Shown one piece after another: positions 6,022-39,764 of a DNA stretch of 41,540 nucleotides. This DNA comes from a virus. A model generated the notes under the pieces. The model had not been told where the DNA came from. It saw nothing but the letters and a program-made list of their open reading frames with translations, and ran no database searches. Each line of letters starts with the position of its first letter. Within the stretch, counting starts at the first letter, position 1. Location: IMG/VR virus record IMGVR_UViG_3300036770_002274, positions 1 through 41,540 of that record. The stretch is one strand, 5' to 3'. Made by a program: the position numbers and the translations under genes.

Positions 6022-6029
6022 GTATATTG

Positions 6030-6245
6030 TTACTTGATATAACCTACAAGTGTTTCAGCATCGTACCAGCCCACAATCTCGTCGTTCAGTTTGTAGACAA
6101 GATAGGGGTCAGCACTGTCGTCAACTTCGTCAAACTTGAGCATAGACTCAAATTCTTCTTGAAGTTGGTCCATATCTTCATCACGCTCAGTAAAGTCAAC
6201 GTTAGGTTCGTTGTCGTACTCAAGACCCTGCGCTACATAAGACAT
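6030..6245 (-). CDS. Small acidic early protein
   Basis: 71 residues, strongly acidic (PNVDFTERDEDMDQLQEEFE). It is a single-gene transcription unit: a sigma70 promoter at 6276-6304, a CGGAGAT ribosome site, then a terminator directly after the stop. That arrangement suggests high early expression of an independent host-takeover factor. No family recognised. Confidence 0.65.
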   Translation of the reverse strand: MSYVAQGLEYDNEPNVDFTERDEDMDQLQEEFESMLKFDEVDDSADPYLVYKLNDEIVGWYDAETLVGYIK

Positions 6246-6275
6246 ACTGTATCTCCGTTTGTTCAGTATGTAGAT

Positions 6276-6304
6276 ATTATGCGCCCATTTTACTCTGAAG
6301 TCAA
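6276..6304 (-). promoter_or_regulatory. Sigma70 promoter, cassette copy 1
   Basis: -35 TTGACT (6299-6304) and -10 CATAAT (6276-6281), 17-base spacer. The spacer ends in GGGCG and the start of the transcript reads ACATACTGAA then ACGGAGAT, both shared with the promoter at 8743-8771. The repeat element at 6319-6336 lies about 15 bases upstream of the -35. Confidence 0.8.
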
Positions 6305-6318
6305 CAACTATAATTCCA

Positions 6319-6336
6319 TATAAATCAATGACTTAC
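6319..6336 (-). repeat. Promoter-upstream repeat element, copy 1
   Basis: Minus strand GTAAGTCATTGATTTATA, upstream of the promoter at 6276-6304. Closely matching copies lie at 6356-6373, 8799-8816 and 21158-21175. Three of the four directly precede early promoters, so an UP element or activator box is likely. Confidence 0.6.
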
Positions 6337-8423: not shown

Positions 8424-8711
8424 TTACTCCTTATCCTGCATACAATAGGTCGAGATAATCCACTTCGCACGATTGATAGCCTGACGGGCATCCTCAGCCC
8501 GCATACTGTCAACCTCACCATACTCAGTAGAAATCATTTCCTGCGCATCGCTAAGGATGCTCATAGCCATCATACCAGCACCACTGAAACGGAAAGTCAA
8601 ACTTTGCTCGACCGCTTCACGCATCTGCTGTTCGGTGCAACCATAGCAACGAACCTGACGCTTTTCCTGTTCGGTAAGATCAAACCCAAGATTCATTGTC
8701 GTAGCAGTCAT
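8424..8711 (-). CDS. Hypothetical early protein
   Basis: 95 residues, helical (EQQMREAVEQSLTFRFSGAG), with several Met and Cys residues. It is the first gene behind the promoter cassette at 8743-8771 and has a strong GGAGATTACGAA leader before ATG. No family recognised. Confidence 0.6.
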   Translation of the reverse strand: MTATTMNLGFDLTEQEKRQVRCYGCTEQQMREAVEQSLTFRFSGAGMMAMSILSDAQEMISTEYGEVDSMRAEDARQAINRAKWIISTYCMQDKE

Positions 8712-8742
8712 TTCGTAATCTCCGTCAATTCAGTATGTTTAT

Positions 8743-8771
8743 ATAATACGCCCAAACTGACCCGAAGTCAA
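8743..8771 (-). promoter_or_regulatory. Sigma70 promoter, cassette copy 2
   Basis: -35 TTGACT (8766-8771), -10 TATTAT (8743-8748), 17-base spacer ending GGGCG. Downstream ACATACTGAA and ACGGAGAT match the cassette at 6276-6304 almost base for base, although the genes behind them are unrelated. Confidence 0.8.
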
Positions 8772-8797
8772 GCCTTATTTTCCTGCAGGAAAAGGCT
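8771..8797. terminator. Hairpin between repeat element and promoter
   Basis: Inverted repeat AGCC-TTA-TTTTCC TGCA GGAAAA-GGCT with a 3-base bulge, lying between the stop of the gene at 8823-8990 and the -35 of the promoter. It lacks a clear U-run on the minus-strand transcript, so it may be a weak terminator or a regulatory stem. Confidence 0.45.
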
Positions 8798-8798
8798 T

Positions 8799-8816
8799 TA
8801 TAAATCAATAACTTAC
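8799..8816 (-). repeat. Promoter-upstream repeat element, copy 3
   Basis: Minus strand GTAAGTTATTGATTTATA, identical in core to the copies at 6319 and 21158. Here the hairpin at 8771-8797 separates it from the -35. Confidence 0.6.
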
Positions 8817-8822
8817 GTTTCC

Positions 8823-8990
8823 TTAGGATCCGCGACCCGTTTTTCTAGTCACAGCAGGGCCACCAAAACCCTTGGTATTGACCTTACCCTGTTGGCCATT
8901 GCTGGGGTTGAAATTACCCTTATGGCCCTGTTGCTGTGCCTTCTTTCTCGCAAGTATATCTGCTATGGGATTTTTCTTTTCTTCACTCAT
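8823..8990 (-). CDS. Small basic Gly/Gln/Lys-rich protein (55 aa)
   Basis: ATG at 8990: MSEEKKNPIADILARKKAQQ, then a Gly/Asn/Gln-rich, Lys/Arg-rich tail ending KTGRGS. Probably disordered and nucleic-acid binding; the role is inferred from composition only. Overlaps the end of the methyltransferase gene by four bases. Confidence 0.55.
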   Translation of the reverse strand: MSEEKKNPIADILARKKAQQQGHKGNFNPSNGQQGKVNTKGFGGPAVTRKTGRGS

Positions 8991-9790
8991 ACTGTAATTG
9001 GACTGTCAGTTTCAGTGCGTAACAGTCTATTATTATTTATGGCAAATTTTCTACTATAAAAACTTGTGCACCAGGCACTGTGATTATTCCATCCTGGTCC
9101 CCAAAAATCTAGTCTTCCATAACCGCGATCATATAGATACTGTTGTATAGGATTATATTGCCATCGGTCACTGTTATCAAGTATAATGATACCGTCATCC
9201 TTTAATCTATTACTTTCAACAGTCATTACAGCACATAAATGTCTAGCCATACCATCTATGACTACCATATCATAAAATTTTTCAGGTGCTTGATATATCA
9301 GACTACAGTAACCACCAAACTCATCATTTACAAGTCCATGTTTTAAATCATGGTCATAATATTCTGTACGTATCTGAATAGCATTGTCGATAAAATTATC
9401 ATAGACACTTTGTGCCTCAGGATGCACACCACTATTTTCTTTGCATACATGAATATCAAGTGATGAATTTTCTTGTAATAATTTTTCCGCCCATTCTGGA
9501 TTATGTTCAATAGTAACTAGTTGTTGAACTTTATTTTTAAAGTATAATGAACTATAACCAGATCCGTATTCTAAAACTTTATAGTTTTGACTAACAATAT
9601 CTTTAAGAAAGGCGATAGCAGGGAAGGTATACCACGGCGTTATACCTTCTTCGTCACTTGGATACTCACTAAACCATCCACTAGGTTGTAGGTATAGATA
9701 TGCATGTGTCAATAAATGAGAATATAATTCATTGGGCATATTAAGTTTATGAGAACCTTCATGCTCAATGAGTGTAATTGGTTTTTTCAT
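8987..9790 (-). CDS. SAM-dependent methyltransferase (class I)
   Basis: 267 residues with a Rossmann methyltransferase core: motif I VLEYGSGYSSLYF (about 90-105), an acidic motif II in VTIEHNPEWAEKLL, then DMVVIDGMARHLCAVM and the strand DDGIIILDNSDRW. This arrangement resembles Methyltransf_24/FkbM-like small-molecule or sugar methyltransferases more than DNA methylases, since no DPPY or PCQ motif is seen. With two glycosyltransferases and an epimerase elsewhere in the window, it may methylate a sugar; that is inference. Confidence 0.7.
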   Translation of the reverse strand: MKKPITLIEHEGSHKLNMPNELYSHLLTHAYLYLQPSGWFSEYPSDEEGITPWYTFPAIAFLKDIVSQNYKVLEYGSGYSSLYFKNKVQQLVTIEHNPEWAEKLLQENSSLDIHVCKENSGVHPEAQSVYDNFIDNAIQIRTEYYDHDLKHGLVNDEFGGYCSLIYQAPEKFYDMVVIDGMARHLCAVMTVESNRLKDDGIIILDNSDRWQYNPIQQYLYDRGYGRLDFWGPGWNNHSAWCTSFYSRKFAINNNRLLRTETDSPITV

Positions 9791-14411: not shown

Positions 14412-14444
14412 CTAAATACTACTATAACTGATTGGGAATGTCAA
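14412..14444. promoter_or_regulatory. Overlapping divergent early (minus) and late-like (plus) promoters
   Basis: Minus strand: -35 TTGACA (14439-14444), 17-base spacer, -10 TAGTAT (14416-14421), driving uvdE. Plus strand: CTAAATA (14412-14418), a T4-late-like -10, about 30 bases before the ATG of the polyprotein gene at 14449. The two -10 elements share bases 14416-14418, so use of one should block the other. Confidence 0.55.
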
Positions 14445-14448
14445 CATC

Positions 14449-17025
14449 ATGGATATCCGTAAAATTTTAGATATAATAGCAGAAGCACAAAAGCCATTAC
14501 AAGAGTTTATGGACACTGGTGGCGGTGATGACGGCGGTGACGAATTGGCACAGCGCGTTATTGAGATGTATTTTGAGGATGGGTTGCGTGAACTAGAAAT
14601 CGCAAGAATTGAAGGCATTCCGGAAGAATTAGTACATAGAATCATAGACCGTCATGAGCGTGGTCTAGATGAAGCAGAAAAGCCACTAGCAAAGGGCATG
14701 AAGGTCATGAGCCTAGCCCAATTTTTACAACAAAGTGGTGTTGAAGCACCTGAAGGTAAAGAGGAAACAGTCAACGAATTGAGTCCTAAAACCAAAAAGA
14801 ATTATAGTGCTGCTGCCAAACTTGATAAGAAATATAATGATAACAATATAGACAAGGCCAAGAGAATGAGCCAAGAGCAGCCACATAAAAAGGCTGAATG
14901 GGAAGATGAAATAGAGTTTCTAAAGTCTGTCAACGCCAAGCGTGATCGCGGCTTGAAAAGAGCAGGTGTTGCGGAAGGTCATGCTGATCAACAACGCAAA
15001 GTTTTCAAAAAGAATGGCAAGCCAGTAGGTGAAGTCGGTATTGATAGAGAAAGTAGTCCAGGTGTTGGACAATGGTACATGAAGTGCTATGCTTACGATA
15101 TAGACTATTCAGGTTACGACTCATATGAAGAAGCCGTAGCAGAACTAAAACATTGCCTAAAGCAAGGTGTGGCGGAGGGAGCACCAGAACTATTGAAAGC
15201 AGAGATGCCATTAGTTCGTCATGCTGAAAAATTGTTAGCACAAAACGGTGTCAGCAAAAATAATCCTGATTATCAGAAACATCTTGCTAACACAATCAAA
15301 CATCTTCGTAAGTTTGGAAACATAGACCTAATCAATAAGCAAGATGTTAAGGAAGGCACAGTAACCCCTATCAGATCATATCTAGTTATGGCAAGTAGAC
15401 CAGGCAGAGGTATGTATACGGATGTTGATGTTTTGATCAAGGATACTGGTACAGGTAAGATTGTTGGACATGTTACAGGTAGAAATGCTCACCCAAACAT
15501 GGATAATGAAATGGATATTGCCCATTACGAACTAACATTGAACAAAGATGGCATAGGACCTGATCTAAAGAACGGATTTGAATTTGAAGCATATGGCGAC
15601 CCTAATTTACCGACAAAAAGTGGTTATAAAGTTTTTGCTACAGACAATAGCGGAAAGAATATACCAAAGCAAAAACCTAAACCTCGTAGTGATGTTGGAC
15701 AAAAGGTCGTACAACTACGACCAGAACAACCTAAAAAACCACAAGGTCTATCAGTATTTTCTCAAGGAAATTTAGAGAAAGCAGCACAAACTGCCAAAGA
15801 CGATGATAGAGATTATGGTCCAGGTATGGAACTAGTTTCAAATGTTGATTGGTATGCATTTTTAGAAAAGTTCTTTGGCAAAGAACTATTAGATGTAGAT
15901 AGTGCTAATGAGATGGGCTATACTGATTGGACAGATAATGGTGATATTGCCTTTACTAGCGGAGAAGGCTCTGTTGCTAAAAAAGTAGATGAAGCAGAAA
16001 AATTAGGTGGCGTATCAGCAAGAAAACTTCCACCAGAAGAAATGAGAGCCTACCTTGACAGAATTACTAAAAAAGAAAAAGAAAAGACAGACAAGTATAA
16101 ACTACCATATATTCATAGCAGTAATATTCCTATCGTCAATGACGATGGTCAGAAATATGATCTACAAAAGTTAGCCGCCGCATTTAGCGAACGCCCAACT
16201 AAAATTCTAAAGCAAAATGAAAAGATGCAGCATAGTGATGGTACTAGCAGCCAATTCTATAATGTTGGCTTACCAGCACTAAAGGGACTAGCAATAGATG
16301 AAGATACTGGCGAATTCGTAGTCATTGACACATGCCCAGGTGCTGGAGCATGTAAACTAGTATGTTATGCCATGAAAGGCGGATATGTACAATGGAAGGC
16401 AAGCAGCCTTGGTCAAACAAAACTATTGAACTTCTTATACAATGATCCAGATGGATTCATGGGTATGCTAGAAAGTGAAATTGCTGGTTATGAAGCAAAG
16501 AACAAGAAAAAGAATATCAAGACAATTATACGCTGGCATGATGCTGGTGACTTCTTTAGTCCACAATATCTAGCAAAAGCATTTGATCTAGCAAAGAAAT
16601 TCCCAGATGTTGATTTCTATGCTTACACTAAACTAGCAGGTGTGGCACAGGGCGAAAAACCAGACAACTTCAAAATCAATTTCAGTGCTGGCGCACAGCC
16701 AAGTCAAGAAAAGAAAATTGACTTTCAAAAGACAAAGAATAGTCGTATTGTTCCAAAAGAACTATTCAGTGACGCACTTGAGAAAGATAGTAGTGGCAAG
16801 TGGCAGTATACAAGCCCACAAGCACAACAAGCAGTCAAAGATCGTATGGCTATCAAGTATAGCCTAGATCCAAAATCAGTTATCACTTATGATGAGATGA
16901 TGAAAATTCCAGTTGATAAGAGCCCAGATGCTAAAGGCAAATGGAATGTTATCGTCAAGCCAGGTGATGGCGATGATGCTGCTAACCGTAATGATGTATT
17001 GAGCAGTCTATTGCTTATACACTAA
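14449..17025 (+). CDS. Virion polyprotein-like protein with GP88-type cysteine domain
   Basis: 858 residues; the only plus-strand gene. The N-terminus MDIRKILDIIAE resembles a T4 capsid-targeting peptide ending in I-A-E. Sites of the form [ILV]-x-E followed by Ala, Gly or Leu recur after residues 12, 75, 110, 176, 243, 302 and 515, several in the linker form GVAEG. They divide the chain into small modules, one being a beta-rich domain at about 177-243. The C-terminal part (about 545-858) resembles the phage GP88 family: cysteines in CPGAGACKLVCYA at 629, 635 and 639, then RWHDAGDF at 695-702 and FYAYTK. A metal or iron-sulphur centre is plausible. Probably a late gene, cut by a prohead protease and packaged; this is inference. 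Confidence 0.7.
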   Translation: MDIRKILDIIAEAQKPLQEFMDTGGGDDGGDELAQRVIEMYFEDGLRELEIARIEGIPEELVHRIIDRHERGLDEAEKPLAKGMKVMSLAQFLQQSGVEAPEGKEETVNELSPKTKKNYSAAAKLDKKYNDNNIDKAKRMSQEQPHKKAEWEDEIEFLKSVNAKRDRGLKRAGVAEGHADQQRKVFKKNGKPVGEVGIDRESSPGVGQWYMKCYAYDIDYSGYDSYEEAVAELKHCLKQGVAEGAPELLKAEMPLVRHAEKLLAQNGVSKNNPDYQKHLANTIKHLRKFGNIDLINKQDVKEGTVTPIRSYLVMASRPGRGMYTDVDVLIKDTGTGKIVGHVTGRNAHPNMDNEMDIAHYELTLNKDGIGPDLKNGFEFEAYGDPNLPTKSGYKVFATDNSGKNIPKQKPKPRSDVGQKVVQLRPEQPKKPQGLSVFSQGNLEKAAQTAKDDDRDYGPGMELVSNVDWYAFLEKFFGKELLDVDSANEMGYTDWTDNGDIAFTSGEGSVAKKVDEAEKLGGVSARKLPPEEMRAYLDRITKKEKEKTDKYKLPYIHSSNIPIVNDDGQKYDLQKLAAAFSERPTKILKQNEKMQHSDGTSSQFYNVGLPALKGLAIDEDTGEFVVIDTCPGAGACKLVCYAMKGGYVQWKASSLGQTKLLNFLYNDPDGFMGMLESEIAGYEAKNKKKNIKTIIRWHDAGDFFSPQYLAKAFDLAKKFPDVDFYAYTKLAGVAQGEKPDNFKINFSAGAQPSQEKKIDFQKTKNSRIVPKELFSDALEKDSSGKWQYTSPQAQQAVKDRMAIKYSLDPKSVITYDEMMKIPVDKSPDAKGKWNVIVKPGDGDDAANRNDVLSSLLLIH

Positions 17026-22132: not shown

Positions 22133-22999
22133 TCAAGTACCCCAAGCATTCTTGAACAATGGCACTTGAATTCTATCGCTATATCGTAATCCATACTTCA
22201 TTGCTAGTTCAGCAACAGTACGATTGTTCAAACTGTACACGCTTTCAACACCACCTACTGGCATAAAGTATACATGACCCCTAAAGCCTGCTTTTTGATA
22301 TACCTTTACTGCTTCTAAGGCCTCGTTGCAATCTTGCTCACTTGCAATTACGAATTTTAAATATGTGTATCCGACATTTTGATATGAAATCACAGCGTCA
22401 GGGTTTATTGCAATTGTTTGATCCTCACCGCTTACACTAAGTTTTGGACTAACGCTGAATGTAACACCGAAATCATAAGACCTGCCCATATAAAAATTGT
22501 CAAATCCTTCCATCCATTCATAAAGATACATTGACAATTCTTGACTTAAACGCTGTGTACCATTTGTTTCAAATGTAATCTCTTTGAGATTTTTCATCAA
22601 AGGATGATTAAGTAAATCTGGATATGCTTTCTGCCATCCTAGTAGCGGTTCACCGCCTGTGATGACTAAGTGTTCGTCTCGCCATTCTTTGTGTGGGAGG
22701 ATATTGACGATAGCCTCCGCAAGGCTATCCGTTGTATAAAACGCTGAAAGATGCTTGAACCTAGGATCCCAACTAGCATAAGAATCACAACCGGTGCTAA
22801 CCAGTGGTAAGTCTCTATAAGATTTATATAACTTTGCATCGACGGTAAGACGTTCATTTGTCTTTTCTCCTCTTGGCATACCGAAACCATCACATTTGAA
22901 ATTACAGCCAAACGTTCTTAAGAACACGCTAGGTACGCCCATGTAACGGCCTTCACCTTGTATACTATAGAATAATTCTGAAACTTTGATTTTGCTCAT
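22133..22999 (-). CDS. queE: 7-carboxy-7-deazaguanine synthase QueE (radical SAM)
   Basis: 288 residues. Converts 6-carboxytetrahydropterin to 7-carboxy-7-deazaguanine (CDG), the third step of 7-deazaguanine synthesis. Diagnostic features: SELFYSIQGEGRYMGVPSVF at the N-terminus, FGCNFKC, CDSYASW, and VITGGEPLL. The iron-sulphur cluster motif is split: Cys32, Cys36 and then Cys71, a CX3CX34C spacing instead of the usual CX3CX2C, with a 32-residue insertion carrying PRGEKTNERLT. The substrate-facing DSYASW box is kept. A perfect -10 lies five bases before the ATG, so the message may be leaderless. Confidence 0.92.
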   Translation of the reverse strand: MSKIKVSELFYSIQGEGRYMGVPSVFLRTFGCNFKCDGFGMPRGEKTNERLTVDAKLYKSYRDLPLVSTGCDSYASWDPRFKHLSAFYTTDSLAEAIVNILPHKEWRDEHLVITGGEPLLGWQKAYPDLLNHPLMKNLKEITFETNGTQRLSQELSMYLYEWMEGFDNFYMGRSYDFGVTFSVSPKLSVSGEDQTIAINPDAVISYQNVGYTYLKFVIASEQDCNEALEAVKVYQKAGFRGHVYFMPVGGVESVYSLNNRTVAELAMKYGLRYSDRIQVPLFKNAWGT

Positions 23000-23004
23000 A
23001 CTTT

Positions 23005-23033
23005 ATTATAACACCTATATTTAGGCTGTTCAA
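23005..23033 (-). promoter_or_regulatory. Sigma70 promoter abutting queE
   Basis: -35 TTGAAC (23028-23033), 17-base spacer, consensus -10 TATAAT (23005-23010). Only five bases (AAAGT) separate the -10 from the queE ATG, so transcription should begin at about the start codon. Confidence 0.7.
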
Positions 23034-23356
23034 TGTTTAGCCTTCTTTTTCTTGTCCAATACTTTTTTACCGCGTTCACGCATAGCAGCAAGTATGTCTT
23101 TCTTGCTTTTTGATTTTGCTTCTACAACCTTTTTCACTTTAGGTATTTTGGGTCTATTACCTAACTCTAGTTTAGGTTCTTCTACTTTCTTTTGTTTTGG
23201 ATAGATTCTAAGTAAACCATCAAGCAAACCATACTCAGTAGTCTGTGTGACCAACTTGTAACCGTTGAAAAGTACTATTTTTTCAGCGGTATTTGCTACC
23301 AAATAATCTCTGAATTCACTAAGACTATTCCATTTTAGTTTTTTAGGAGTATACAT
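23030..23356 (-). CDS. Lys-rich hypothetical protein
   Basis: 108 residues from the ATG at 23356 (TAATG overlap with the upstream stop; GAGG eight bases before). The N-terminal 50 residues are mixed (YTPKKLKWNSLSEFRDYLV); the C-terminal half is very Lys-rich (KKDILAAMRERGKKVLDKKK), suggesting nucleic-acid binding. No family. Confidence 0.6.
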   Translation of the reverse strand: MYTPKKLKWNSLSEFRDYLVANTAEKIVLFNGYKLVTQTTEYGLLDGLLRIYPKQKKVEEPKLELGNRPKIPKVKKVVEAKSKSKKDILAAMRERGKKVLDKKKKAKH

Positions 23357-23604
23357 TATAACCACCTCAAAGTGAATAGCATAGCATCTTTTTCATTCTT
23401 GAACAAGTATCTATATTTTGTAGTATATTTTATTTCGCGTTCATGTAACCCCATACCTGTCCAAAATACTGTCCATACACCATCATGATTATCGATAGGA
23501 CCCCAGCGTTTCCCGAACTGTTGTTCACACCATGATTCAGGAATGTGTGGCTTAATATCGCTAATCACTTCGTGCCAACCTTTTGTTACTTTAGATTTAC
23601 TCAT
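23356..23604 (-). CDS. Small Trp-rich protein, tandem paralogue A
   Basis: 82 residues starting at the ATG at 23604 (ATGA overlap). Ends RYLFKNEKDAMLFTLRWL. Two neighbouring genes end in the same way (hydrophobic-x-Leu-x-Trp), and all three have a W-x-hydrophobic strand followed by a basic, aromatic segment. A small duplicated family of unknown role. Confidence 0.65.
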   Translation of the reverse strand: MSKSKVTKGWHEVISDIKPHIPESWCEQQFGKRWGPIDNHDGVWTVFWTGMGLHEREIKYTTKYRYLFKNEKDAMLFTLRWL

Positions 23605-23912
23605 AACCAACGTAACTTATACCAGTTTACTTCTGCTGTGTCGCGGAAATAAATTCTAGTTCTATGATTGTCAGTGATCCAAGCCCATTTATATTCTTTA
23701 TCATCTTCAATAAATTTTAATTCACAACTTGGACCCCATGTTTCCCAACACCATTCTCTTACATCACAAAATAATGAACCTTGCTTATATGTAAAATCTA
23801 GGCCATATTTAAAATAATTACCGCCGGTATAACGCCTATCAAGTTCTGTGATGTTGGGCGGGTTTTTCTCCCATGGATTAAGCCAACCATTATAAACTTT
23901 TTTCTTCATCAT
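23601..23912 (-). CDS. Small Trp-rich protein, tandem paralogue B
   Basis: 103 residues from the ATG at 23912 (ATGA overlap with the upstream stop). Trp- and Tyr-rich: CWETWGPSCELKF, YKWAWITDNHRTRIYFRD, ending EVNWYKLRWL. Shares the terminal pattern with its neighbours at 23356 and 23909. Function unknown. Confidence 0.65.
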   Translation of the reverse strand: MMKKKVYNGWLNPWEKNPPNITELDRRYTGGNYFKYGLDFTYKQGSLFCDVREWCWETWGPSCELKFIEDDKEYKWAWITDNHRTRIYFRDTAEVNWYKLRWL

Positions 23913-24121
23913 ACCCATGTTAGCACGAACCACTCATAATCTTTTATATGTCTAAACTTTATTGTAAACAATCTGTCGCCGTTCAGTGACCAGATAGTAT
24001 GTTTTCTATGCCCTGGAATGTTTTTATCTATCCATATCATCAATTCTTCAAATTGATCATCGGATTTTACAGTAAAACTTGCCGTGTACCAACCATTCTT
24101 ATAACTTGCCCAGTCTTTCAT
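23909..24121 (-). CDS. Small Trp-rich protein, tandem paralogue C
   Basis: 70 residues, MKDWASYKNGWYTASFTVKS ... FRHIKDYEWFVLTWV. The end (KDYEWFVLTWV) parallels KDAMLFTLRWL and AEVNWYKLRWL in the two genes downstream. Function unknown. Confidence 0.65.
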   Translation of the reverse strand: MKDWASYKNGWYTASFTVKSDDQFEELMIWIDKNIPGHRKHTIWSLNGDRLFTIKFRHIKDYEWFVLTWV

Positions 24122-24132
24122 CTGCTATACAG

Positions 24133-24594
24133 TCATGTAATATTCCACCACTCTTCCCAAGGAAACACGCACCATTCTGGATTTTCAGTTTTGTTGATTT
24201 CGTGACCGGCATAGTCAACAAATTCATCACTGCCTTCGTTATCGATGCAAACTGCAAACTTGACATTATAATTAAAAATGCTTTCCCAGTCACCTGAATT
24301 GCTGATCCAATCTTTTTTAAGATTATTAAGTGTAGTACCGGTATCATTGATATCATCAACAACTAAAATGTTTTTACCTTCTAGTGCATCTTCAGCCATC
24401 CATAAATTACTTTCATCCTTATTCAATGCATAGAAAGGTACATCAAGATAATGACTTAACAGTACCCCCGGAACTAATCCGCCTCTAGTAAGTCCTACAA
24501 TATAGTCCGGGCGAAAGTTATCATTATACATTTGTCTAGCGATTGCTAGTACATAACTCTTGATTTGATTATCTGTATAATAAACTTTATTCAT
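24133..24594 (-). CDS. Purine-type phosphoribosyltransferase
   Basis: 153 residues, type I PRTase fold. The PRPP-binding loop is NILVVDDINDTGTTL (about 75-89), preceded by DYIVGLTRGGLVPGVLL and SHYLDVPFYAL as in xanthine/hypoxanthine-guanine PRTases (E. coli Gpt is 152 residues). Transfers ribose-5-phosphate from PRPP to a free purine. Lying between queE and queD and near GMP reductase, it may salvage guanine or act on a deazaguanine base; substrate choice cannot be read from sequence. Confidence 0.8.
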   Translation of the reverse strand: MNKVYYTDNQIKSYVLAIARQMYNDNFRPDYIVGLTRGGLVPGVLLSHYLDVPFYALNKDESNLWMAEDALEGKNILVVDDINDTGTTLNNLKKDWISNSGDWESIFNYNVKFAVCIDNEGSDEFVDYAGHEINKTENPEWCVFPWEEWWNIT

Positions 24595-25015
24595 TGGTTA
24601 CGTTCACACTACACTTGCGAGTTTCTTCAATTTTAACTTTTACAAGTGTAACATCACTACCTTGTAATAGTTCTGGACCAACAACATTGATCAAGTATTC
24701 GCCCATGTTTTCAGCAGTAGGATTAAAGTTGACAATCACAGTACCCTCTGGATCAAGAGCCTTAAGTTGTTCAGACCAAGGATCGTTCTCCCATATCAAA
24801 AACTTATGATCCCATTCACGTTCTACCCACATACAAAGAATGTCTTTGATTACACTAAAGTCCATAACGCGACCTACTTTGTCAAGTTTAGGTGCTTCGA
24901 CTGTAAAATGAATGCGATAGTTGTGACCATGCAAATGTGCGCACTTGCTTTCATGTTGATATACACGATGACCTGTGCTGAAATCGTGATAACGTTCTGC
25001 TTGAATCTTAGCCAT
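24587..25015 (-). CDS. queD: 6-carboxy-5,6,7,8-tetrahydropterin synthase QueD
   Basis: 142 residues. T-fold enzyme converting 7,8-dihydroneopterin triphosphate, the FolE product, to 6-carboxytetrahydropterin. Zinc ligands and catalytic Cys are present: His in FSTGHRVYQ, then CAHLHGHNYRI (C-x3-HGH). Downstream come VMDFSVIKDIL, a WDHKFL box, ENMGEYL and the final Glu in IEETRKCSV. The ATG at 25015 is preferred because it is coupled to the upstream stop (ATGGCTAA); 25024 is an alternative. Works with folE (26575) and queE (22133). Confidence 0.92.
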   Translation of the reverse strand: MAKIQAERYHDFSTGHRVYQHESKCAHLHGHNYRIHFTVEAPKLDKVGRVMDFSVIKDILCMWVEREWDHKFLIWENDPWSEQLKALDPEGTVIVNFNPTAENMGEYLINVVGPELLQGSDVTLVKVKIEETRKCSVNVTNE

Positions 25016-25172
25016 TTTTTTCATACTCTTCAACAATTTTATTTTTCAAAGTTTCAAAGAGTGGATCTAATGCCACACTAGGATTTAATTCTAATTCTGT
25101 ATCGGTGATGCAACTTTTATCATAAGTTACAACAACCTTATCACCCTTATTATTTTCAAATGTTAACTTCAT
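25008..25172 (-). CDS. Small acidic hypothetical protein (54 aa)
   Basis: ATG at 25172 (ATGA overlap with the Smr gene) opens MKLTFENNKGDKVVVTYDKS ... FETLKNKIVEEYEKNG, a beta hairpin followed by a helix. Its stop overlaps the queD start, linking it to that operon. GGAG lies seven bases upstream. No family. Confidence 0.6.
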   Translation of the reverse strand: MKLTFENNKGDKVVVTYDKSCITDTELELNPSVALDPLFETLKNKIVEEYEKNG

Positions 25173-25381
25173 AACCATCTCCTAATTATTATTGTTCCAT
25201 AACGATACATATGTGTTTCAATACCCAATTTATTTGTTACATCGTGTACTAATTGTATCATCTTACCGCTGTTACCGCAAATGATTTCTAATGGAAATTC
25301 TCCCTGATTCATATAAATGAAATCTTCTACCAATACTTTTACATCTTGGTGACGAATTCCATGTAAATCAAGTTTACGCAT
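25169..25381 (-). CDS. Small Smr-domain protein
   Basis: 70 residues that are essentially one Smr domain: the LDLHG motif at residues 4-8, then PLEIICGNSGKM (the G-x-G loop, here GNSGK) and the end IIIRRW. Smr domains are nicking endonucleases or RNA-cleaving modules. No MutS part is attached. Overlaps neighbours on both sides. Confidence 0.75.
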   Translation of the reverse strand: MRKLDLHGIRHQDVKVLVEDFIYMNQGEFPLEIICGNSGKMIQLVHDVTNKLGIETHMYRYGTIIIRRWL

Positions 25382-25712
25382 CTTTCTTTACTGTTGGGAG
25401 TACGCCAATTACAATCCAAGGAACAATATTGATGTATGGTATTAATGTTGCTAATGTCCACCATGGATTGATATCAGCATCCTTACAACGTCTTACTGTA
25501 GTTGCTATTGCTACCCAACATGGACCAACAATTGATGCTAATATGATAAGACCACCAATTAACATAGGTATTACACTATCCATGCTTTCACCTATGCCAA
25601 AAAATATAGCCCCTGCTAGTATCAAAACAAAAAATACTGCAATGTTTATTAGATAAACAGCCCAATATTCGCTGCGTGTTGCTAACCCGTCAAATTTAAA
25701 ATATTTTGTCAT
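25374..25712 (-). CDS. DUF805 family inner-membrane protein
   Basis: 112 residues. Begins YFKFDGLATRSEYW, the typical DUF805 start, followed by three or four hydrophobic helices (about 17-42, 47-70, 82-104) with the conserved TTVRRCKDADINPWW segment. Integral to the cytoplasmic membrane. The family has no known activity, and it is unusual among replication and modification genes of a phage. Confidence 0.8.
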   Translation of the reverse strand: MTKYFKFDGLATRSEYWAVYLINIAVFFVLILAGAIFFGIGESMDSVIPMLIGGLIILASIVGPCWVAIATTVRRCKDADINPWWTLATLIPYINIVPWIVIGVLPTVKKDA

Positions 25713-26182
25713 TTTTCACTATACCTCTTTGTATTTTCTGCCTGCCAAACACGCTCACGCAAGTTTGTACTACTGAAACTGTGATCACGACTATTGAATA
25801 CTAATTTGATATTACGCTTCTCACAGATAGCGCGACCAGTAAATTCACTTTGCATATACTCAACACCCAAGATGCGAACATCTAGTGGTAATGTCAACAA
25901 GATATCTTCTAAGTCTTTTTCTGTATTGTAAACTACAATTTCATCTACAAAGCGCACAGCACTTAGTTGAATTTGACGCTCTACCAAACTTTGAATAGGT
26001 GCATTTTTTTGTGGTCTATCCCACGCCGCATTATTTTGTAATCCTGCAATTAAGTAATCACAATGATTCTTTGCTTCTGCCAGCATGGCAATATGACCTG
26101 CATGTAATAGGTCAAACTGACTAAAGGTAATACCAATAGTCAGTCCTTTATCCTTTAATTCTTTTACTTTGTTGAATATCAT
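25709..26182 (-). CDS. Cytidylyltransferase-like nucleotidyltransferase
   Basis: 157 residues. The HxGH nucleotide-binding motif lies in FSQFDLLHAGHIAML (about 22-36), and the second motif is SSTNLRERV, equivalent to ISTT-x-LR. Length and motifs match glycerol-3-phosphate cytidylyltransferase or RfaE-type enzymes, which activate a phosphorylated sugar or polyol as a CDP or ADP derivative. Could feed the sugar-transfer genes; the substrate is unknown. Confidence 0.82.
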   Translation of the reverse strand: MIFNKVKELKDKGLTIGITFSQFDLLHAGHIAMLAEAKNHCDYLIAGLQNNAAWDRPQKNAPIQSLVERQIQLSAVRFVDEIVVYNTEKDLEDILLTLPLDVRILGVEYMQSEFTGRAICEKRNIKLVFNSRDHSFSSTNLRERVWQAENTKRYSEK

Positions 26183-26415
26183 CTTTTCAACTCACTCCAC
26201 ATTTGTTTCTTGTGCTGCTCTTCTAACCATTCTTCTTCGCCACTAAATGTAGGCTCTCGCTTCAAACATTCGTCAAGCAACCACTTGATCTCATATAATT
26301 CTTTCTTGATTACCCATTGTGTAAAACCATCATTGTAAGCACTACAGATTTCTCCGTGTGCTTTCATCAATTGCATTTTTATATCATTTACTTCTAGAGG
26401 TTTCCGAAAGCCCAT
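26179..26415 (-). CDS. Small helical hypothetical protein
   Basis: 78 residues, charged helices with Trp (FTQWVIKKELYEIKWLLDEC). ATG at 26415 with AAGGTGG site. Overlaps both neighbours. No family. Confidence 0.6.
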   Translation of the reverse strand: MGFRKPLEVNDIKMQLMKAHGEICSAYNDGFTQWVIKKELYEIKWLLDECLKREPTFSGEEEWLEEQHKKQMWSELKR

Positions 26416-26578
26416 TTGCCACCTTATTTGTATCTATAATAACTTCTAATGCTTGGCGTAACAATTTTTCAATCTCAACTAACTTTTGTTCTGTCTGATA
26501 AAGTTTTTTAGTATTGAGTTCAAGGGTAGCCTCTAATGTGCATACCCTCGTGAACAAGTGTTCGTTAAAATCACTCAT
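26384..26578 (-). CDS. Small coiled-coil protein
   Basis: 64 residues from the ATG at 26578 (ATGA overlap with the folE stop), heptad-like: LEATLELNTKKLYQTEQKLV then EIEKLLRQALEV. A short dimerising coiled coil is likely. Translationally coupled to folE. Function unknown. Confidence 0.6.
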   Translation of the reverse strand: MSDFNEHLFTRVCTLEATLELNTKKLYQTEQKLVEIEKLLRQALEVIIDTNKVANGLSETSRSK

Positions 26579-27255
26579 TTGCAACCCTGCCTTGCTAGAT
26601 TATAAAACTCTTGTCTAGCAGCAGCATCAGTCTTGAATCCACCGCCTAAACGGCTAGTTACTGTGCTACTACCAGTATCTTCGACACCGCGGCTCTTGAC
26701 ACAATAATGTTGTGCGTCAATCATGACCGCGACATCATCCGTCTCAAGAATATAGCATAGTGTATGGAAAATCTGTTCAGTCAATCGTTCTTGGATCTGC
26801 GGACGCTTACTGAAATATTCTACAATGCGATTGATCTTTGATAGACCAAGAACCTTTTGTTTAGGTACATATGCTACTGTAGCGAGACCATCAATCACGA
26901 CGAAATGATGTTCGCAGTTGCTTTGGACATTGATGTTTCGTTCAACGACCATCTCATTGTAGTGCATCTTGTTGTCAACAGTCGTACACTTGGGGAATGC
27001 TTCATAATCAAGACCCCAGAAGATTTCATTGACATACATTTTAGCGACACGTTTTGGTGTCTCTGCTAGACTGTCATCACTTAAGTCAAGACCAAGAATA
27101 CGCATGATGCCAACAAAGTGGCTCTCAATCATCTCAATCTTTGTTTTGCGGTCGTAAGTGCTTTCTAATGTGGGCGTTTCTACGCCGACCTTGACTAGAT
27201 ATTCGTGAACACGCTTGCCCAACTCGGGATCGGTCTTTGTCTTATTGTAACTCAT
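26575..27255 (-). CDS. folE: GTP cyclohydrolase I (FolE)
   Basis: 226 residues (E. coli FolE is 222). Opens GTP to 7,8-dihydroneopterin triphosphate, the first step of 7-deazaguanine synthesis. Zinc and active-site motifs: SNCEHHFVVIDG with the Cys and two His, KVLGLSKINRIVEYFSKRPQ, QERLTEQI, and QHYCVKSRGVED carrying the second zinc Cys. Very strong AAGGAGAAAG ribosome site. Together with queD and queE in the same stretch this completes the route from GTP to CDG. Confidence 0.95.
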   Translation of the reverse strand: MSYNKTKTDPELGKRVHEYLVKVGVETPTLESTYDRKTKIEMIESHFVGIMRILGLDLSDDSLAETPKRVAKMYVNEIFWGLDYEAFPKCTTVDNKMHYNEMVVERNINVQSNCEHHFVVIDGLATVAYVPKQKVLGLSKINRIVEYFSKRPQIQERLTEQIFHTLCYILETDDVAVMIDAQHYCVKSRGVEDTGSSTVTSRLGGGFKTDAAARQEFYNLARQGCK

Positions 27256-39012: not shown

Positions 39013-39255
39013 TTATTCGTACTTCAATTTTAGGAAAGTATAATCTTCGTCCTTTATAGAAATAATAACATCGTGCTTACTTGTGAGTTTGGTTTTGTAA
39101 CCTTTACTTTCTAGTAGTTTGGCGATTTTACCACGCAATACATTTGGTCTAGGCACATTAGGATCAAGTGCTAATAGAATCTCATAGATATCTTTTTGCC
39201 AGTTGTCTTGTATCCAATCAAACAACCATTTGTTTTTGTCTAGGCTGACTAACAT
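39013..39255 (-). CDS. Small hypothetical protein
   Basis: 80 residues: MLVSLDKNKWLFDWIQDNWQ, then LLALDPNVPRPNVLRGKIAK and a beta-rich end. The start codon overlaps the last base of the metalloprotease stop region (TAATG type), so the two are coupled. No family. Confidence 0.6.
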   Translation of the reverse strand: MLVSLDKNKWLFDWIQDNWQKDIYEILLALDPNVPRPNVLRGKIAKLLESKGYKTKLTSKHDVIISIKDEDYTFLKLKYE

Positions 39256-39764
39256 TATTGAAAGACTTGACGATTTGCTTTCCCGTAAATTTTGATATAC
39301 TTACCAGCAAGCATATCAGCCATTGCTTCTATGGCACTACCTGGGTAACTGTCACCGTCATCTATAAGATTCAATTCGCCTTGACGTACATGAACCAATT
39401 CATGGAATACAGTGCGTAATATATCTACTAGATTGCGATTATTAGCATATACCCAAATACTATCGCCACCTACGACATGGCGTCCAGTATGATGACCCTG
39501 CTGTGCTTCTTCTGTGTCGTAACTCAATTCAATTTTGGGTGGATTCTTGATGTGTAATTTTTCACATGCCCAGTCCTTGAATTTTTCTACTTCGCTAGCG
39601 ATTTCTTTACTCTCGTACATGCTCTCGCCACCGCCACCATCTCCGCCGCCTTCACCACTGGAACTATCAGCGGCAAATGCGTATCCTGGATAGAAATATC
39701 CACCGTAAGCATATTTGCGTCTACGCTTCTTTTTGCGTTCTGTGATGAATTCTGTGGCTCGCAT
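39255..39764 (-). CDS. HExxH metalloprotease with capsid-targeting-like N-terminus
   Basis: 169 residues. The zinc-metalloprotease signature is HELVHVRQ (H-E-x-x-H), with a downstream Glu in SAIEAMADML as possible third ligand; the chain is short, as in SprT- or WSS1-like minimal proteases. The N-terminus MRATEFITE followed by RKKKRRRK resembles the T4 internal-protein targeting peptide (MKTYQEFIAE) removed by the prohead protease after I-x-E. A Gly/Tyr- and Gly/Asp-rich linker (about 20-45) joins the two. Late-promoter-like ATAAATA lies five bases before the ATG. Packaging into the head and injection into the host are inferences. Confidence 0.75.
   Translation of the reverse strand: MRATEFITERKKKRRRKYAYGGYFYPGYAFAADSSSGEGGGDGGGGESMYESKEIASEVEKFKDWACEKLHIKNPPKIELSYDTEEAQQGHHTGRHVVGGDSIWVYANNRNLVDILRTVFHELVHVRQGELNLIDDGDSYPGSAIEAMADMLAGKYIKIYGKANRQVFQ

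Follow-up and report, generated by a model that had tools for sequence, protein, structure and literature searches.

A putative internal head polyprotein of T4-like phages, built from exchangeable cassettes with prohead-protease-like linkers and a GP88 domain

The closest described counterparts of the gene analyzed here encode the T4 internal head proteins IPI, IPII and IPIII and the Alt protein, which are expressed late and carry a short N-terminal targeting sequence that ends at a gp21-type site. Published work on T4 shows that the prohead protease gp21 cleaves behind the Glu of L/I-x-E and that ten N-terminal residues of IPIII are enough for targeting (PMC9026906). In the giant phages phiKZ and SPN3US, many head proteins, including ejection proteins, are cut after a short Glu-ending motif whose specificity depends on the phage (PMC5694885, PMC9026906); in the available portions of these sources, the cuts remove long propeptides, and interchangeable cassette arrays are not described. 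Polyvalent proteins of phages and plasmids also combine several unrelated domains in one chain, and are thought to be injected and to come apart on deployment, a separation ascribed to embedded metallopeptidase domains (PMC5512222). Finally, the GP88 family (PF17338; gene 88 of mycobacteriophages) features CPxAxxCxxxC-type cysteines and a GDFFSxxY-type motif. In the four non-T4 viruses that we checked (D29, Gilgamesh, Daubenski, and an archaeal virus), GP88 is a free protein of 215-246 aa that starts at the domain, with no targeting leader and no modules.

The window, i.e. the whole 41,540-nucleotide stretch of viral DNA that was analyzed (IMG/VR record IMGVR_UViG_3300036770_002274), contains the same domain at the end of a much longer chain. 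This 858-aa ORF starts with ATG and occupies positions 14449-17025 of the plus strand (Table 1). An earlier note, based on the letters alone, had described it as a polyprotein with prohead-protease-like sites and a GP88-type end; the ORF, sites, linkers and domain are all confirmed, and the interpretation is supported, with cleavage itself remaining an inference. We estimate a probability of roughly 0.7 that the gene encodes a late-expressed, cassette-shuffled internal head polyprotein processed by a gp21-type protease, where cleavage, head location, injection, and module functions are inferred. As in T4, the proposed chain has a short targeting-like start that ends at a gp21-type site, and records of its relatives hold T4-type head genes. 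Whereas each T4 internal protein delivers one cargo, the window type has up to six modules per targeting sequence, with further sites between them and shuffling among proteins. We file the cassette polyprotein as a variant of the T4-type internal head proteins.

Table 1. Positions of the polyprotein gene's parts and of associated elements in the window.
Feature	Position	Strand	Remarks
CTAAATA, T4-type late-promoter-like element	14412..14418	+	about 37 bp before ATG
Targeting-like propeptide MDIRKILDIIAE	14449..14484	+	residues 1-12; ends at site 12, then A
Module 1	14485..14673	+	residues 13-75; weak similarity to sigma-70 region 4 / HTH
Module 2	14674..14778	+	residues 76-110; KVMSLAQF segment; ends at site 110
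Module 3	14779..14976	+	residues 111-176; GVAE end
Linker repeat copy GGTGTTGCGGAAGG	14965..14978	+	1 mismatch to GGTGTGGCGGAAGG
Module 4, GHADQQ cassette	14977..15177	+	residues 177-243; KQGVAE end
Linker repeat copy GGTGTGGCGGAGGG	15166..15179	+	1 mismatch
Module 5, GAPELL cassette	15178..15354	+	residues 244-302; DVKE end
Module 6	15355..15993	+	residues 303-515; VDE end
Module 7, GP88 domain	15994..17022	+	residues 516-858; stop codon 17023-17025
Second gene with targeting-like start, MRATEFITE then R	39255..39764	-	HELVH zinc-peptidase-like domain; TAAATA within 70 bp upstream

All seven previously noted sites, [ILV]xE followed by A, G or L, are present (after residues 12, 75, 110, 176, 243, 302 and 515), and the GVAEG repeat is exact (residues 173-177 and 240-244). 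Two further [ILV]xE[AGL] sites had not been listed, one after residue 48 (LRE, then L) and one after residue 232 (VAE, then L); the latter is probably not cut, because it sits in a helix that is predicted at the C-terminal end of its module. The total of nine compares with 2.7 expected from shuffles of the same composition (P=0.001), and all nine fall within residues 1-520 (2.0 expected), leaving none in the GP88 part. Bare [ILV]xE is not enriched over shuffles (14 versus 11.3), so that the site count alone is only moderate evidence and the case rests on the relatives.

A scan of viral contigs provided 79 relatives, whose full ORFs were compared. The proposed division of the chain into modules at the sites is borne out by close relatives, in which module gain and loss, established here by sequence, meets the sites: whole-module differences do so in L001, L003, L004, L005/L006, L013, and L029. 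Module 1 is present in the window and L004 and missing from L001, L003, L005 and L006, a 63-aa indel with both ends on sites. L001 and L003 also lack modules 3 and 4, the former of which is found in L004-L006, and L003 further lacks module 5. Module 4 alone is missing from L004; in L005 and L006 it is replaced by a GSEDSF cassette, and module 6 is absent with its junction at a site. Every close relative retains module 2, even the minimal L013 (384 aa), which consists of a targeting-like start, the KVMSLAQF segment, a site, and GP88. In five simple indels (63, 67, 59, 78, and 119 aa), both ends coincide exactly with sites, and direct reading reveals the junctions as site-to-site joins at the protein and DNA levels alike. 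An automated gap-end test gave only weak support (exact ends in 5 of 31 gaps, compared with a null mean of 1.4 and a null maximum of 6 over 2000 trials), since swapped modules misplace the alignment gaps, and the junction case thus rests on the direct reading. When all carriers are considered, 30.5% of local-alignment ends lie near sites versus 13% at random (2.3 times), a result that counts against the case. The sites of the window's lineage differ in DNA and have only the protein pattern in common. As for module identity, the Sigma70_r4 match of module 1 (E=9e-4) falls under the curated Pfam cut-off, and a Pfam search with module 6 gave no match.

The claim that the first site closes a short targeting-like N-terminus holds up well. 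The start MDIRKILDIIAE, followed by A, meets the T4-type targeting-peptide criterion of an [LI]xE end at about 10-20 residues, and a start ending in [I/V/L]xE is demonstrably conserved in 60 of 65 relatives, with I, V, and L at P3 in 31, 18, and 11 of them and a varied P1'; it is absent from GP88 of actinophages and the archaeal virus. Some of these starts, such as MKTFKQHLNE followed by A, resemble the leaders of T4 internal proteins. Targeting-like starts are found in 61 of 106 cassette-bearing ORFs versus 201 of 1236 other ORFs (odds ratio 7), a ratio that is approximate because the comparison set consists of raw ORFs. The pattern is also loose, being matched by 16% of the other ORFs.

The minus-strand UvdE gene and the polyprotein gene are separated by a gap that holds the CTAAATA element. 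CTAAATA or ATAAATA demonstrably recurs upstream in 38 of 56 distinct relatives, against a TAAATA background of about 0.02 per 70 bp, and such an element is mostly missing upstream of the relatives' gp22 and gp23. Late expression of the polyprotein gene is inferred from this promoter-like sequence, without expression data. In L001, L003, L010, and L197 alike, the polyprotein gene stands in inverted orientation with UvdE on one side and an epimerase gene on the other; in L036, neither neighbor was matched, but there too it is oriented against its surroundings. The earlier note had considered it the sole plus-strand gene. Other plus-strand ORFs of at least 80 aa do overlap minus-strand genes, with two exceptions: a 98-aa ORF with a TTG start at 6027-6323, which minus-strand genes leave uncovered, and an ORF at 8604-9059, which they cover in part. 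Because of the uncovered ORF, this claim is not fully settled.

Beyond the close relatives, the GHADQQ and GAPELL cassettes occur at 53 and 38 loci, respectively, mostly in unrelated proteins and with [VM]xE flanks. In 160 proteins, we delineated 329 inner cassettes of 25-160 aa (median 71 aa), which form about 224 families, 180 of them singletons, joined at linkers of the type [VM]xE followed by G. The 67-aa GHADQQ cassette has 37 copies in 36 of these proteins, in 34 left and 33 right contexts, and the residues before it vary (KPVQE, GMTE, DVAE, SVAE, VVAE) around a constant [VM]xE. Judged by sequence, the window gene is one case of a much larger cassette pattern, and the recurrence of the cassettes is established at that level. 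Cassettes 4 and 5 had no match in cultured phages, and the GHADQQ cassette had none in plasmids. A free-standing 83-aa cassette relative was identified in KVP40-type phages (KVP40.0154; L455, 1414-1665), and this KVP40.0154-type protein, which has a weak OCRE-domain match (E=1.5e-5), is found in 49 cultured Vibrio phage records. Pfam searches with 20 carrier polyproteins returned almost nothing beyond a few DUFs, so that the cassette functions stay unknown; by eye only, some cassettes look ADP-ribosyltransferase-like or ParB-like, which we do not claim as an assignment. One carrier, L107 (record G022), has an exact tandem duplicate of GHADQQ, of which the related L104 has one copy. The L107 backbone is related to a structural protein of PA5oct identified by ESI-MS/MS. 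No description of arrays of this cassette kind was found in the literature searched, which does not prove its absence.

Could the chain remain uncut? The [ILV]xE linkers might be mere flexible joints, tolerant of inserted domains, in a multi-domain protein that acts as an intact chain inside the cell or the virion, in the manner of polyvalent proteins. Multi-domain injected phage proteins are known (PMC5512222), no cleavage has been observed, and gain or loss of domains at linkers would be ordinary evolution. However, flexibility requires neither a hydrophobic P3 nor a glutamate at P1, and [VM]xE stays constant before GHADQQ in its varied contexts; an uncut chain also leaves the conserved targeting-like start and the late promoter unexplained, and we regard it as unlikely. 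Separation would differ in kind from that of polyvalent proteins, as the window type would depend on short linkers and the head-maturation protease in place of embedded metallopeptidases; Pfam searches with the window protein and with its modules matched no peptidase family.

The linkers further carry a signal at the DNA level. In GVAEG and GMAEG linkers of unrelated cassettes, GCG accounts for 102 of 109 alanine codons (11% background) and GTG for 89 of 100 valine codons (22% background). As unrelated cassettes have these rare codons in common, the linker appears to have been copied as DNA. Conservation covers about 20 bp and breaks off sharply on either side, as seen in a set that was itself selected by DNA match. 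In the window, two copies of the linker repeat flank the GHADQQ cassette, and these are the only matches with at most two mismatches (0.07 expected). The rare codons, the sharp-edged stretch, and the tandem duplicate in L107 would all suit a recombination or mobile-element site, in which the repeat A[AG]CAAGGTGTGGCGGAAGGC reads KQGVAEG by chance and has no protease role. Its reading frame speaks against this: the exact 16-mer AAGGTGTGGCGGAAGG is in one frame in 166 of 172 contexts in viral contigs, where distances of 141-246 bp between copies are common and 51 of the 54 spacings below 3 kb are divisible by three, compared with 40 of 119 matches in that frame and no repeats in bacterial genomes. 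The bacterial matches, being single and without frame preference, were taken as chance. Moreover, the window-lineage sites with their shared protein pattern alone do not fit a DNA site, and the linker codons of the GHADQQ family are not clearly better conserved than the cassette body, which fits copied ancestry. A purely DNA-level site would also leave the targeting site and the association with gp21 phages unaccounted for, and we find it improbable as the whole explanation. We read the codon sharing as a likely trace of shared descent by recombination and not as proof of a function at the DNA level.

A DNA-level role of the linker is compatible with cleavage, and both can be true together. 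In its broadest form, our reading is that aquatic T4-like phages possess a widespread in-frame system of hundreds of cassettes, in which the linker DNA provides recombination homology and the linker peptide the prohead-protease site, such that any recombinant would be cut into payload units. We advance this extension tentatively, at somewhat less than even odds.

The C-terminal module was identified firmly, with PF17338 matching residues 590-765 at E=1e-31 and 111 bits (cut-off 24.4). The cysteine domain to which the earlier note had drawn attention is thus GP88, and C629, C635, C639, and RWHDAGDF are invariant in 23 relatives. AlphaFold2 predicts a barrel-like module 7 (pLDDT 83.8) and a module 4 of four strands and a helix (pLDDT 81.8), with lower confidence for the first and last blocks of the latter. 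Comparison of the GP88 model with PDB folds gave weak partial matches, several of them radical SAM enzymes at Z about 5, mixed with other barrels; the GP88 cysteine spacing is Cx5Cx3C, in contrast to the CxxxCxxC of radical SAM enzymes. The module's sequence had no significant match in the PDB, and the best fold match of the GHADQQ cassette (YkuJ, Z 5.0) was uninformative. A further reading, in which GP88 is an enzyme that acts late and in the cytoplasm while its N-terminal extension is degenerate and the modules are neutral passengers, is very improbable. GP88 does stand alone in actinophages and the archaeal virus, and so works without modules, and minimal T4-like forms such as L013 are nearly module-free. 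Yet even these minimal forms retain the [ILV]xE site at the N-terminus together with another one directly ahead of GP88, and the cassettes recur in many other proteins with conserved sequence.

Processing by a gp21-type protease presupposes such an enzyme, and the search for one that the earlier note had proposed gave a divided answer: none was found in the window's own 41.5-kb record, a fragment searched without a positive control, and 14 of 20 related records were positive. PF03420 (gp21) is present in 14 of the 36 larger records that hold relatives or cassettes. Of the 20 records tested for gp23, 14 were positive, and they are the same 14 that have gp21. This demonstrable co-occurrence includes the syntenic records G004 and G032, which share parts of the window's locus order. 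Of the large records, the closest two (150 and 100 kb) have no gp21, but gp23 and the portal are missing from them as well, and hence the protease is not shown for the window's own phage. In the related records, gp22 and gp23 proteins feature [ILVM]xE runs near their N-termini. In most internal linkers P3 is V, a departure from the L/I rule published for T4 that counts against cleavage, although V and I replace one another at the relatives' targeting site. Cutting at V-x-E is accordingly inferred only.

The internal-head reading that we favor can be put as follows. In a T4-like phage, the gene product would be made late in infection as the precursor of several proteins of the head interior, and its first 12 residues would act as a capsid-targeting sequence that brings the chain into the prohead core. 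There, a prohead protease of the gp21 type, whose gene would lie in another part of the genome, would cut after [ILV]xE in unfolded linkers, removing the targeting peptide and freeing the modules, with the GP88 protein last. By analogy with the T4 internal proteins and Alt, the pieces may stay alongside the packaged DNA and pass into the host upon infection; both their stay in the head and the injection of GP88 are inferred. Recombination between phages would add, drop, and swap modules in frame, because every module starts and ends at the same short kind of linker, resulting in a mix-and-match payload. If this is true, such phages carry into the host a modular, rapidly shuffled protein set that is processed by the head-maturation protease, and many unannotated phage proteins become readable as separate cargo units. 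The arrays would then be a concrete place to seek injected counter-defence proteins, as well as a natural model of how a single targeting peptide can serve to pack many proteins.

The window holds a second gene with a targeting-like start (Table 1). Over 120 aa, its product shares 56% identity with the module that ends the L121 polyprotein; one cargo is thus found both alone and in an array. Separately, QueE-like, QueD-like, and GTP cyclohydrolase genes lie on the minus strand at 22133-27255, and their sequences suggest 7-deazaguanine metabolism in the window phage.
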